From Synergistaceae bacterium (GTDB lineage Bacteria > Synergistota > Synergistia > Synergistales > Aminobacteriaceae): 64,000 bases of DNA. The stretch covers positions 1 to 64,000 of the forward strand of contig JAIRYN010000008.1 of assembly GCA_031267575.1 (NCBI GenBank), given 5' to 3'. Both the position numbers and the translations under genes were made by a program. This document shows positions 51,473 to 57,048 of this stretch, in pieces. How positions within the stretch are numbered: position 1 is the stretch's first letter; every line of letters begins with the position of its first letter. Below the pieces are notes generated by a model, which ran no database searches, had not been told where the DNA came from, and was given only the letters and a program-made list of their open reading frames with translations.

Positions 51473-51928
51473 TTAAACCGTTCGAAATTTATTCATTTCT
51501 TCTTCCAGAGCGTAAGCCTTCCCGAATAGAGATATACGCCGCTTCATATCTAACGATTCAAAGATACGCGTCAACTCCATAATTTCCTCGGTTATCGCGC
51601 GTTCATTCTCTCTGTTGACGAAGACGGTATTATCATTCCCTGCCTGGATAAAGGCGTTGTTCCGAACATCACCAGATATCACATTCGATAAATGTTGGGA
51701 TTTCTCTTTTTTTATGGTCCTAAACATTTCTCCCTCTCCAGTCAGAAGCCAAGAAGGAGATACATCATATTGCACAATAAGCTTAAGAAGGAAGGTAGAT
51801 TGTGGATCCCCCTCTTCTTTTTCATAGCGCCAATATGTTCTATTGGGCAAGCCTAAAATCTTCGCAAAATCTTTTTGACTGTATTTCAAATATTTTCGCA
51901 AAATATAGAGCTGATCTTTTATTGCCAT
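51473..51928 (-). CDS. XRE-family repressor, prophage CI-like
   Basis: This protein has 151 residues. The N-terminal helix-turn-helix is clear (LRKYLKYSQKDFAKILGLPNRTYWRYEKEEGDP, residues 10-42), followed by the FLLKLIVQYDVSPSWLLTGEGEMF linker typical of phage repressors. The C-terminal half is polar and lacks the S24 peptidase Ser/Lys pair, so SOS-type self-cleavage is not expected. It is divergent from a phage replication-like gene with a palindromic operator between them, as in an immunity region. Confidence 0.88.
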   Translation of the reverse strand: MAIKDQLYILRKYLKYSQKDFAKILGLPNRTYWRYEKEEGDPQSTFLLKLIVQYDVSPSWLLTGEGEMFRTIKKEKSQHLSNVISGDVRNNAFIQAGNDNTVFVNRENERAITEEIMELTRIFESLDMKRRISLFGKAYALEEEMNKFRTV

Positions 51929-51945
51929 TTTTACGGTTCATCCCC

Positions 51946-52036
51946 TTGACGTATTCGCCAATATGGCGAATAATGTTTTCTATCGGAAGGTCTCTTTAGA
52001 TATCATACCTCGGAAGGTATCTTTAGATATCATACC
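51946..52036 (+). promoter_or_regulatory. Divergent switch: promoter with palindromic operator and 27-bp repeats
   Basis: The plus-strand -35 TTGACG (51946-51951) and -10 AATAAT (51969-51974) are spaced by 17 bp. The spacer is filled by the inverted repeat TATTCGCCA-ATA-TGGCGAATA (51952-51972), so a bound repressor would cover the promoter. Two 27-bp direct repeats differing at one base follow (51983-52009 and 52010-52036); each ends in GATATCATACC, and copy 2 has the inverted ends GGTAT/ATACC. Confidence 0.75.
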
Positions 52037-52099
52037 AAAGTGTTTGTAAGTTGAGAAGGCTGTTCACAAGGACGGCCCTAGAGAGCTCGGAGTGTGATC

Positions 52100-53518
52100 A
52101 TGAATACCGATATTAGAATATCCGTTGAATTTTGGCGACATCCCAAAACAGTGAAACTTGAACGTTGCGTTGGACTCGAAGGCGTCAAGTCTTTGTTGAT
52201 CCTTTGGGCGTGGGTTGCCTGTAATCGTCCTGATGGGGATTTGCGGGGACTGGATACCGAGGACATCGAAATTGCCGCCGAGTGGAAAGGTGAACCGGGA
52301 ACGCTGATAAAATTCCTGGTTGCCTTAGGATGGATCGATGAAGAAAACGGGCGTTACGCAATACACGATTGGATAGAACATAATCCGTGGGCCGCCAGAG
52401 CCGATGATCGAAGCAACGCTTCTCGTCTAGGAAAATTGAAGCAAGTCAATAGAGCGGCTTATGAAGAACTTCAACAGCTTAAAGTAACTTCTCTTTCCAA
52501 AGAAGAATATCAACAATGGAAAGACTATGTTCCATTTGACATACTCCCACGACTAAATAAAAAGTATGCTTCGGAGTATGCTCTAGATTATGCTTCGGAG
52601 TATGCTCTAGATTATGCTTCAGAGTATGCTCTAGATTATGCTTCATGGAAGGACTCTGTTCTATGGAAGGACTCTGTTCTGGCGACGCAAAACGAGAACG
52701 TAGAAACGCGTGACCATACGTTTGTGCCATCGATAGCGAACGCTAACAAACCAACCCCTGAACCAACTCTTGAACTAACCTTTGAACTAACCCTCCAGGA
52801 GCTCGCCGGGGTCAACGCTGGCGCGCGCGCGGCGAACGCTGGCGACTCGCCGGCGACGGCCCCGGCTTCTTCTCTTGCTCTTGCTCTTGTTCCTACTCTT
52901 GCTCCTACGCAAAAAGAATATGCGCAACCTGCGGTTGCGCGCCCCCCAGCCGAGGACCTTTTAAAGTCAATAAAATCCAATAAGCCGACAAAAGCCAGTA
53001 AGCCAGTGGAACTGGCGAACTATCCTGACCCGCGCAAGGTGGACAAGGTGAGCAAGCAGCGGGCTTTCGAGGTATGGCAGTGTATACGGGCTCCTGCGTT
53101 CCCGAGCGCGTTCCCGACCAACGCCCCATCGTCAAGCGCGTTAAGCGCGTCGTCACGGCGGCGCTACCCTACGCTCCGCAGCGGAGACGCGACGCTTGGG
53201 GGCAGAGGCGCAGTTTATCCGGCACCCAAAGACATCATCGCCGGGTATTTCACGCGCACGCGCACGCGCAACGCTCCATCCGCGAGATCAAATCAGGGCA
53301 AACGCGCGCTTAAGGGATGTGTGTACCTTGCGGCTATTCAGTATATAATAGTTTTCGAGAGTTCACAGCCAATTGCCAGGGAATTTCAAACGCTCGAAAT
53401 CGCTTTGACTATTCTAACTTTAAGTCTTTTATTTCAATTTGCTTTGAAGCGGGTTCGAGGCGGGTTCGAAGCGGAGGGAGGTGGATTTTTTGAAGCTGTT
53501 CGAGATCGTTTCACCTGA
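52100..53518 (+). CDS. Prophage replication-like protein with repeat- and IS-derived tail
   Basis: The ATG at 52100 follows GGAG and opens a 472-residue frame. Residues 1-135 (RISVEFWRHPKTVKLERCVG; FLVALGWIDEENGRYAIHDWIEHNPW) resemble N-terminal winged-helix domains of phage replication or replisome-organiser proteins. At residue 146 the frame runs through an IS200/IS605 end fragment (52536-52554), then three copies of YASEYALD and two of WKDSVL. The rest is low-complexity (PTPEPTLELTFELTLQEL; ALALVPTLAPTQK) and its last 60 residues look non-coding. Probably a decaying gene kept open by in-frame repeats; only the first 145 residues are convincing. Confidence 0.6.
   Translation: MNTDIRISVEFWRHPKTVKLERCVGLEGVKSLLILWAWVACNRPDGDLRGLDTEDIEIAAEWKGEPGTLIKFLVALGWIDEENGRYAIHDWIEHNPWAARADDRSNASRLGKLKQVNRAAYEELQQLKVTSLSKEEYQQWKDYVPFDILPRLNKKYASEYALDYASEYALDYASEYALDYASWKDSVLWKDSVLATQNENVETRDHTFVPSIANANKPTPEPTLELTFELTLQELAGVNAGARAANAGDSPATAPASSLALALVPTLAPTQKEYAQPAVARPPAEDLLKSIKSNKPTKASKPVELANYPDPRKVDKVSKQRAFEVWQCIRAPAFPSAFPTNAPSSSALSASSRRRYPTLRSGDATLGGRGAVYPAPKDIIAGYFTRTRTRNAPSARSNQGKRALKGCVYLAAIQYIIVFESSQPIAREFQTLEIALTILTLSLLFQFALKRVRGGFEAEGGGFFEAVRDRFT
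52536..52554 (-). mobile_element. IS200/IS605 right-end fragment inside a coding frame
   Basis: TTGACATACTCCCACGACT is identical to the ends at 36470 and 60308. Here the return arm of the hairpin is missing and the 24-bp repeat array starts ten bases later. It is translated as FDILPRL within the prophage-like protein. Confidence 0.75.
52564..52680 (+). repeat. In-frame 24-bp and 18-bp tandem repeats
   Basis: Three copies of a 24-bp unit that begins TATGCTTCGGAG (52564-52635, encoding YASEYALD) are followed by two copies of TGGAAGGACTCTGTTCT(A/G) (52645-52680). Both unit lengths are multiples of three, so the frame stays open. Confidence 0.92.
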
Positions 53519-54707
53519 TCTGTTGCAGGAGATTCAAGACTGCTTTGCCTCTGCTACTGGGTTTGCCGCCATTACGGTCGACTTTCAAGGAAAACCGCTT
53601 CTAAAATATAGCAATTTTTCACAATTTTGTCTGAAATTAAGAGAGGACGAGTTTTTCCACTATTATTGTTGTCAGTCCGACGCCCACTCAGGGCTCGAAG
53701 CCGTGCGCAAGGGTTCTCTGTGCATCCACCGATGTCACGCGGGCCTGATCGACTTCGCGGTTCCCATTATCGTCGATGGCGAGTACATGGCCTCCGTCAT
53801 GTGCGGCCAGGTGAAAGCCGACGACGATACGGCGCTTAAGACCCGCCTCCTTGAACAGAGCGACGACATTTTTACTGACAGGCCGGAACTACGCGCCCTG
53901 CACGACAAAATACCCGTGCTACCGGTGCGGCGCATCAAAGAAACAGCCGAGTTGCTCAATAGGATCGTCAACTTCATCGTGGAACAATTTTACTCCCAAA
54001 GACGCGACACCCGCTTTTTGGAGGACAGAAAGCGACAGGAAGAACTCACCCGCCAACGTGACGAAATGGAGATGATGTTGCTCCACGCGCGAATATCGCC
54101 TCATTTTCTTTTCAACGCGCTCAACGTCGCGGGGCGTCAGGCACACATGGAGGGCGCGCGGAAGGCGGAAGACGTCATTTACGCGCTAGCTGACATGTGC
54201 CGTTACTTCATGCGAAATGACGAACCCCGCGTGACGGTGGAACGAGAACTGCAAAATGTGAAAAACTATTTCTTCATCCAGAAAGTGCGTTTTGGTGACC
54301 TACTCTCGTTTACTTTCGACGTCCAGCCCGATATACGGGATTGCCTCATACCCTCCATGTCCCTTCAGGCGTTGGTAGAGAACTCCATGCATCACGGGCT
54401 GGAGAAAAAAAACGGCCTTGGCTATGTTAATGTTAGATTGCGTGGTTTCAAGGAGAACGGCATGGTTTGTTTCGAGGTGAGCGACAACGGGGCGGGCGCC
54501 TCCAAAGATCGATTGACATTATTGAACGGCATGGGGGACCTGAATACCCTGCCCACGAATTTTTCAGCCGATGGGATCTATAATTTGCGTAAAAGGCTGC
54601 GGTATTTCTGGGAGAATGGTTTCAAACTTCAATTTTCCGAAAACACGGAGGGCGGCGTGACAGCCCGGCTGGAAATAGCCGCGCGTAAGCCGGCTCAGGT
54701 CGAGTGA
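53490..54707 (+). CDS. PocR-domain sensor histidine kinase, LytS/YpdA-type
   Basis: This cytoplasmic sensor kinase has 405 residues. I prefer the TTG at 53490, nine bases after GGAGGGAGG; a GTG at 53481 overlaps that ribosome site. Residues 1-165 form a PocR sensory domain, with conserved cysteines in YYCCQSDAHSG and LCIHRCHAGLIDFAVPI. After a coiled-coil segment (EELTRQRDEMEMMLLHARI) the His_kinase domain has the phospho-acceptor in ISPHFLFNALN, and the ATPase has the N-box ALVENSMHHGLE and the G-box VSDNGAGA. It is co-transcribed with the regulator 7 bp downstream. PocR domains sense small organic ligands; the ligand here is unknown. Confidence 0.93.
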   Translation: MKLFEIVSPDLLQEIQDCFASATGFAAITVDFQGKPLLKYSNFSQFCLKLREDEFFHYYCCQSDAHSGLEAVRKGSLCIHRCHAGLIDFAVPIIVDGEYMASVMCGQVKADDDTALKTRLLEQSDDIFTDRPELRALHDKIPVLPVRRIKETAELLNRIVNFIVEQFYSQRRDTRFLEDRKRQEELTRQRDEMEMMLLHARISPHFLFNALNVAGRQAHMEGARKAEDVIYALADMCRYFMRNDEPRVTVERELQNVKNYFFIQKVRFGDLLSFTFDVQPDIRDCLIPSMSLQALVENSMHHGLEKKNGLGYVNVRLRGFKENGMVCFEVSDNGAGASKDRLTLLNGMGDLNTLPTNFSADGIYNLRKRLRYFWENGFKLQFSENTEGGVTARLEIAARKPAQVE

Positions 54708-54714
54708 GGCAAAA

Positions 54715-55524
54715 ATGTGCCGTATTGTGGTAGTCGATGATGAATATCTAGAGCGGGAATTTATCAAAAAAGTTCTCCGCAGCATCGAAAATACAGAGGT
54801 AGTCGGTGAGGGAGGCAACGGAGATATGGCTGTCGAGCTTTGTTCTGTGCTGAAGCCAGACATCGTTTTCCTCAATTGCGGCATGGGGGCCTTCGGAGGA
54901 TTAGAAGCCGCCGCGCGGATCCGCCTGAAAGACAGAGACGTCGTCATCGTTCTGACGAGCGCAGATGAAGATAACTTTCAGGACAAGGACGAACGTCACA
55001 CGCCGCTGAACATCGCCGAGTACCTTTTGAAGCCAATACGAGCGGAGACGATCAGGGAAATCGTTCTGAAACGCGGCGGACGCGGCAAGTCGAGTGCGCG
55101 CATACCCGCGAAGATGAAAAAACACCTCAAGTTTTACCCCCTCAATATCATGTCGCGGGAAATCACTCTGGCGTTGGCCTATATCGACGCCCACTATGGC
55201 GAGGACATCAGTTTGGACTCCGTGGCAGATGTGGTTTCTCTCAGCAGTTACTATTTCAGCAGACTCTTCAAGAAAGAGGTTGGGGTCAACTTCTCGCGGT
55301 ATGTCCTCCATAAACGGCTCGAAGCGGCCAAGCGGACGCTGGAGGAGACAGAAGACCCCATAACGGATATCGCAACCTCGGTGGGTTTCCACGAAGGCCA
55401 TTACTTCGGCAAGAAATTCAAAAAATTCACGGGTTCGACACCGTCGGAATACCGAAAAAAGCTCGCCCTTCTCGAAGAAGAACGAAAGAACGTGCGGGGA
55501 AAATATCAAGAAGAACTATCCTGA
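54715..55524 (+). CDS. AraC-type response regulator with Asn at the phospho-acceptor site
   Basis: This regulator has 269 residues. Residues 1-125 form a receiver domain (IVVVDDEYLERE; the Lys in EYLLKPIRAE). The usual phospho-acceptor, FLDxxMP, reads FLNCGMG: residue 54 is Asn (AAT at 54874-54876), and the following Pro is also lost. Residues 150-255 form an AraC double helix-turn-helix (ISLDSVADVVSLSSYYFSRLFKKEVG; DPITDIATSVGFHEGHYFGKKFKKFTGSTPSEYR). Standard phosphotransfer from the intact kinase is therefore not expected. It faces the DUF1177/OPT/DUF917 genes, its likely targets. Confidence 0.93.
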   Translation: MCRIVVVDDEYLEREFIKKVLRSIENTEVVGEGGNGDMAVELCSVLKPDIVFLNCGMGAFGGLEAAARIRLKDRDVVIVLTSADEDNFQDKDERHTPLNIAEYLLKPIRAETIREIVLKRGGRGKSSARIPAKMKKHLKFYPLNIMSREITLALAYIDAHYGEDISLDSVADVVSLSSYYFSRLFKKEVGVNFSRYVLHKRLEAAKRTLEETEDPITDIATSVGFHEGHYFGKKFKKFTGSTPSEYRKKLALLEEERKNVRGKYQEELS

Positions 55525-55586: not shown

Positions 55587-55609
55587 AGTCCCCAGAAGAT
55601 CCGGGGACT
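55587..55609. terminator. Hairpin between convergent genes, shared repeat type
   Basis: AGTCCCC (55587-55593) pairs with GGGGACT (55603-55609), followed by TTTC. The 3' part (from GAAGATCCGGGG onward, 21 bp) is identical to the hairpin at 60593-60615. Confidence 0.7.
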
Positions 55610-55627
55610 TTCATCAAAAAATATTAA

Positions 55628-56590: not shown

Positions 56591-56761
56591 ATTTTCTTCT
56601 GCTACTGAAAACCTATGCAAATGTGTAATAGTCCAGATTTTTCCTTCTTCATCCTTATTTTTCCTTATCCTTATTTTTCCTGCTTCATCCTTCCCTCTTT
56701 CGCCAAAGCTACTCAAGTTTATACGGAAGTCCAAAAGCTTAAATTTCCGTGTAGCCCACGG

Positions 56762-57048
56762 TACATAACATTACACTATAGGTTTATAGCCGCGTTCAAA
56801 TCGCGGTTCGCAAATTTTACAGTAGCAGGTTTCACCTTCTTTCTATTTTTTATCAACAGATTTCGATCAACAGCCGTCAAGAATTAATTTTTCGAAAAAA
56901 TTTACGTTGCTCTCGTTTAAGCCCGCGTTTTAATTTCTTAACTCTGGATGCTTTGTTTGTATTGCTATATATTGCTAAAAATCTGATGCTTAGAAACCGT
57001 AGCTGTTTCCTTAATTCCTACATCAACACCTATTCCATGCCTTTCCAT
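56762..57048 (-). pseudogene. tnpB: Frameshifted tnpB remnant (IS200/IS605)
   Basis: From 57048 downward the minus strand reads MERHGIGVDVGIKETATVSK, then FSNI and a stop; one frame over, SNTNKASRVKKLKRGLKREQRK follows. These are consecutive TnpB motifs (GIDxGIK...S and the KLxRxLKREQR helix) split by a frameshift near 56968. KFANRDLNAAINL near 56800 is what is left of the zinc-finger end. It separates the OPT gene from the DUF1177 gene. The 56600-56700 segment holds only pyrimidine-rich repeats (CTTATTTTTCC). Confidence 0.75.

Follow-up and report, generated by a model that had tools for sequence, protein, structure and literature searches.

The PocR-domain sensor kinase and the AraC-type response regulator encoded side by side in the window (the whole stretch of 64,000 nucleotides analysed here, from the Synergistaceae bacterium assembly GCA_031267575.1) form a pair in which the receiver carries asparagine in place of the phospho-acceptor aspartate. 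Pairs of this type ordinarily activate diol-degrading microcompartments by handing on a phosphate. With a probability that we put at slightly above one half (about 0.52), this pair would be a divergent two-component system of the PocR-domain type that controls the Pdu (1,2-propanediol/glycerol) microcompartment operon, has given up signalling through Asp phosphorylation and couples kinase and regulator by contact.

The kinase and regulator pair

The regulator gene (54715..55524, forward strand) encodes a protein of 269 amino acids, in which a receiver (residues 1-120; Response_reg, E 8e-15, 55.4 bits) is followed by an AraC-type HTH domain (about residues 150-250; HTH_18, E 2e-23), as assigned with Pfam and AlphaFold2. 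The AAT codon at 54874..54876 places Asn54 in the motif FLNCGMG, at the position of the phospho-acceptor Asp. This was re-read from the sequence and checked by alignment, and it confirms the starting observation of an earlier note on this DNA. Sequence and alignment likewise show that the remainder of the active site has been kept, namely the acidic pocket D8-D9-E10 (54736..54744), the conserved Thr/Ser of receivers as Thr81 (54955..54957) and the conserved Lys as Lys106 (55030..55032), all on the forward strand. Asn54 is flanked by Leu53 and Cys55, so that no Ser or Thr is adjacent to it. The AlphaFold2 model, calculated without templates from 8 sequences and used for the fold only, contains the (beta-alpha)5 elements of a receiver with a mean pLDDT of 79.2 and a pTM of 0.48, and the local confidence of the receiver is good except around helix 4. 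A PF00072 receiver fold without the phospho-acceptor Asp defines a pseudo-receiver, and the window regulator is of this type.

The kinase gene (53481..54707, forward strand, with an uncertain GTG start) ends 7 bp before the regulator gene on the same strand. It encodes a PocR-domain LytS-type sensor histidine kinase of 408 amino acids, identified with Pfam and by orthologues of 55-62% identity, with clear matches to PocR (E 1e-44, 152.6 bits) and His_kinase (E 6e-22, 78.2 bits). HATPase_c scores 21.0 bits, under the Pfam cut-off of 26.4, and passes the cut-off in two of the three orthologous kinases. From sequence and alignment, the predicted phospho-donor is His208 in RISPHFLFN (CAT codon 54102..54104, forward strand) and the predicted ATP site includes Asn301 of the N-box VENSMHHG (AAC codon 54381..54383, forward strand); the G box reads DNGAG. 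The kinase had been described as intact, which holds for the His and for the N and G boxes but not for the residues around the His, which have drifted to RISPHF, QIPAHF and DVRPHF from the canonical QxNPHF. In composition the pair is a PocR-type two-component system, a kinase with PocR and His_kinase domains next to a REC-AraC regulator. Of the two residues that define canonical His-to-Asp transfer, the H-box His is present as His208 in all four members of the clade formed by the window pair and its close orthologues, and the acceptor Asp is replaced by Asn54 in all four.

These orthologues are found in three Synergistota MAGs, G020 (JAISQE010000029, locus L039), G167 (JAISFV010000155, L040) and G166 (JAIRNC010000019, L041), with 59-64% identity. 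The earlier note had proposed to align orthologues and held that Asp54 among them would point to a recent mutation or a sequencing error. However, FLNCGMG was read in 3/3 close orthologues, and Asp appears at this position in relatives of 35-42% identity only. The four Asn54 codons are AAT, AAT, AAC and AAC; since both Asn codons occur in the clade, the silent third base has varied while the one-step reversion to Asp is absent. A sequencing error or a recent mutation is ruled out by Asn in the three orthologues and by the use of both synonymous codons. Furthermore, D8, D9, E10, T81 and K106 are invariant in 4/4 clade members, and the HTH domains score high in Pfam (82-86 bits).

Between the window gene and L039 the silent sites are saturated (pS 0.79-0.84), implying that Asn has outlasted many silent changes. 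One clade pair, L040/L041, is close enough for dN/dS, with omega values of about 0.13 for the kinase, 0.18 for the receiver and 0.08 for the HTH domain, all omega values being approximate because dS is saturated in most comparisons. The L040/L041 pair is under purifying selection. The Asn clade, a group of gut bacteria, is at present known from four genomes. Within the window genome (97% complete, 76 contigs), the acceptor column was read in all 29 receiver domains and contains 28 Asp and one Asn, that of the window regulator, which rules out a genome-wide erosion of receivers. With Asp in 28/28 other receivers and Asn in three diverged orthologues, Asn54 is beyond chance.

Phosphotransfer residues in related pairs

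A kinase profile search of 188 Synergistota genomes, together with clostridial loci, yielded 35 pairs for which the His and Asp positions were tabulated. Both residues are intact in 25/35 pairs, and four groups show degeneration. In the window clade (a), the kinase His is kept and the receiver Asp is replaced by Asn. In its sister clade (b), consisting of L042, L043 and L091, the kinase His has become Tyr (PYFYFN) and the receiver Asp is kept; the L091 receiver has lost the acidic pair as well. The Tyr-type kinases of L042 (G166, contig C52), L043 (G157) and L118 (G165) lie beside a glycyl-radical diol dehydratase compartment, and G166 harbors both a Tyr-type and an Asn-type pair. The Paraclostridium ghonii pair (c; L045) has Asn for the kinase His and Met for the receiver Thr. 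Finally, in the pairs of G148 (L116, 8689-11097) and G177 (L117, 8310-10690) (d), both ends are dead: the kinases have Asp for His and lack the G box, and the receivers have Asn for Asp and DS for DD. No HATPase_c match was found in the G148 kinase with Pfam.

Four state changes are required on the kinase tree as well as on the receiver tree of the 35 pairs, a count that may be off given the moderate deep support and the long branches of some degenerate rows. The degenerate groups all fall in one part of the kinase tree, the pdu-type branch, with a moderate support of 89/89. The window pair excepted, every degenerate group has microcompartment genes as neighbours, of either the pdu or the glycyl-radical diol dehydratase type. 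The both-dead kinases and regulators of G148 and G177 are still adjacent to each other and still beside pduA-B-C, and with dN/dS values of about 0.08 and 0.10 the pair is under purifying selection. The sensory domain has retained its score, with 152-163 bits for PocR in degenerate Synergistota pairs compared to 146-179 in intact ones, whereas His_kinase scores 44-78 bits in degenerate Synergistota pairs compared to 96-103 in intact ones. The Paraclostridium kinase stays at 90 bits for His_kinase. One further pair, from Rahnella, was examined after a plasmid search; it is intact and adjoins GRE/pduF genes.

Linkage to pdu genes and genomic surroundings

The pduU, pduV, pduA, pduB and pduC genes stand next to the pair in G020, G166 and G167, in divergent orientation. 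Residence in a pdu/BMC locus was seen in these three orthologous genomes and is absent in the window genome, where the pair stands by itself on contig C8; the pdu operon is located on contig C9, and the 4.2 kb preceding pduU there contain no regulator. A block of ~80 bp is common to the region upstream of pduU in the window genome and the intergenic region between kinase and pduU in G020. The pattern CAARAAACTRTCAYM, taken from this block, matches exactly at C9:53333 and in the G020 intergenic region, in both cases by construction. The pattern also matches exactly in the intergenic region of G167 and at one place within the G167 pduG gene, and one-mismatch matches elsewhere are about as frequent as for a reversed control pattern. 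The motif is represented by few sites, two of its matches being located inside pduG coding sequence. As firm proof of a promoter element it is weakened by these two internal matches and by the matches of the reversed pattern, and the shared block and motif would constitute a fair lead for control of pdu in trans.

The DUF917 and OPT genes had been suggested as targets. The three orthologous loci have neither these genes nor DUF1177 next to the pair, and C8 contains no exact or one-mismatch match to CAARAAACTRTCAYM, so that the DUF1177, OPT and DUF917 promoters lack the motif. All three genes were rejected as targets on these grounds, and the closeness of DUF917 and OPT to the pair is probably positional.

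Several mobile or repeated elements surround the pair. Phage-like remnants directly precede it (window 51473-53480), comprising a gene for a small HTH protein (51473-51928, reverse strand) and an ORF whose N-terminus resembles phage replication-initiation proteins (52094-53518). These remnants may hint at how the pair became separated from the pdu operon. Upstream of DUF1177, at about 56600-57040, stretches of 42-158 bp are 85-100% identical to stretches of C9 at about 31.4-32.1 kb, with a copy near 37.7 kb; they resemble the 3' end of an IS605-type TnpB gene and represent a dispersed repeat or IS remnant. In addition, hairpin-like sequences close to AAAGTCCCCGGATCTTCYGGGG at about 55592-55616 and about 60595 flank the DUF1177/OPT/DUF917 block and are possibly a repeated terminator-like element. 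A second microcompartment locus (L081; G000 C47:68137-81899) contains three BMC shell genes next to adenine-deaminase-like, UbiD-like, permease, dihydropyrimidinase-like and isochorismatase-like genes; read by eye, it looks like a compartment for purine/pyrimidine breakdown and not like a Pdu compartment.

Signal transfer in the pair and its alternatives

In the proposed mechanism, the PocR domain would sense a diol or a related small molecule, as is expected from its family, and the kinase dimer would convey the ligand state to the receiver by direct, non-covalent contact. The receiver would retain its fold and acidic pocket, acting as a pseudo-receiver owing to Asn54, and the AraC domain may recognise a site of the CAARAAACTRTCAYM type within the pdu promoter, both the binding to DNA and the direction of control being predictions. 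As the pdu promoter of the window genome is on C9, regulation there would take place in trans.

Contact signalling is favoured by the four separate losses; it is the simplest account of the facts, and under it donor as well as acceptor would be dispensable. The pairs of G148 and G177 provide the key control: they have no donor, no ATP site and no acceptor, yet are adjacent, pdu-linked and under selection. A point against this mechanism is that the His and the ATP boxes of the kinase are kept in 4/4 clade members, which is unexpected if kinase activity were useless; the kinase may undergo a conformational step driven by ATP, or phosphorylation may occur at another place. A broader interpretation, which we hold tentatively and at a little below even odds, is that phosphotransfer is dispensable in several lineages and that the pair is a split one-component system, whose kinase senses the ligand and serves its regulator as a non-covalently coupled allosteric subunit. 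The G148 and G177 pairs could then be its extreme form and the window pair one that has lost the acceptor only, an assignment to be regarded with the same reserve. The earlier note had considered a non-phosphorylated mode of control, or else a kinase that serves another regulator, with the DUF917 and OPT promoters as targets. The first of these gains support from the conservation of Asn54, from relatives that have lost the His or both residues, and from the persistence of the pairs beside pdu operons; the others find no such backing.

The main rival holds that the regulator is constitutively active and controlled by its abundance, with the kinase having no direct role or only titrating the regulator. 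Many characterised Asp-less regulators work without phosphorylation and the constitutively active ones are controlled indirectly (PMC12632262), and the drift of the residues near the kinase His in the Asn clade would fit an idle kinase. However, the kinase gene adjoins the regulator gene in every case, purifying selection on it (omega about 0.13) resembles that on the regulator, and its PocR domain scores in full; the kinase of the both-dead G148 and G177 pairs is also selected. The selection on the kinase weakens this rival, which appears rather unlikely, and the three remaining alternatives are less likely still.

It is improbable that the kinase phosphorylates another residue of the window regulator, or a different regulator, even though it retains His208, the N-box and DNGxG. 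Leu53 and Cys55 leave no Ser/Thr acceptor adjacent to Asn54, and the genome offers no other REC-AraC or LytTR partner. The window genome encodes one PF06580 kinase, one PocR domain and three AraC-type HTH proteins, with a receiver on the window regulator only. No LytTR protein, second REC-AraC protein or second PF06580 kinase was found in this 97%-complete genome. A kinase serving another regulator, as had been proposed, is unlikely in the absence of a candidate partner.

Deamidation of Asn54 to Asp in the cell would allow a fraction of the regulator to be phosphorylated normally, and this is consistent with the retention of the remaining pocket and of the kinase His, and with the reported reversion to Asp of a receiver Asn at the same position (PMC4395418). 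It is nevertheless a very improbable explanation, as the Asn codon has been kept by selection although Asp is one base away, and lineages without the kinase His would be left unexplained. In addition, Asn54 is followed by Cys, not Gly, and a residue other than Gly at the next position usually slows Asn deamidation. Equally improbable is a decaying system with Asn54 as the mark of a relaxed, non-functional regulator, which could draw on the separation of the pair from the pdu operon and on the adjacent phage-like and IS-like remnants, but which is at odds with the lack of any frameshift or stop, an active-site pocket that is invariant in four genomes, HTH scores of 82-86 bits and an omega well below 1 in the one measured pair.

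Neither Asp-less receivers nor pdu-locus two-component systems with a PocR domain are new. In PDU1D microcompartment loci, Axen and colleagues described a PocR-domain kinase accompanied by a regulator, together with a comparable pair at the 1,3-propanediol operon of C. butyricum (PMC4207490). In EMSA, the regulator of the homologous Acetobacterium woodii pdu pair, Awo_c25930/25920, binds DNA upstream of pduA and upstream of the kinase gene (PMC7593272). As in these systems, a PocR and LytS-type kinase precedes a REC-AraC regulator and is pdu-adjacent in the orthologous genomes, but the window clade has Asn for Asp and the window pair lies away from the pdu operon; the comparison with the pairs of A. 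woodii and C. butyricum used their published descriptions, not protein sequences. The PocR proteins of Salmonella and Lactobacillus reuteri also link PocR sensing to an AraC-type output for diol use (PMC11264322, PMC3162504), though within one protein, whereas the window system has two, which are linked through kinase and receiver, perhaps without phosphate exchange.

About 2% of receivers lack the phosphorylation site, with Asn among the commoner replacements (PMC12632262, PMC4395418). Like the window regulator, RitR (Asn53) combines a DNA-binding domain with a PF00072 receiver that has Asn at the acceptor position (PMC4395418; PMC12632262), but it is redox-controlled via a linker Cys, while the window regulator has a single LytS-type kinase with its His and keeps D/D/T/K around the Asn. 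The atypical regulator CmrT of Clostridioides difficile shares an operon with a kinase in CmrRST (PMC12632262); this operon also includes the normal regulator CmrR, whereas no second regulator accompanies the window pair. Of 20 reviewed atypical regulators, 18 are orphans (PMC12632262). The literature searched, which was thin on subscription journals and preprints, yielded no account of PocR pdu systems that have lost phosphotransfer residues repeatedly.

According to a 2025 review, how bacterial pseudo-receivers are controlled is "a mystery", nearly all characterised ones being kinase-less orphans (PMC12632262). The window pseudo-receiver has one obvious partner, a predicted ligand class and a predicted target operon. 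Taken together with its relatives, which form a natural series with donor, acceptor or both lost, it makes phosphate-free signalling from kinase to regulator directly testable, and it bears on how Synergistota control their diol microcompartments.
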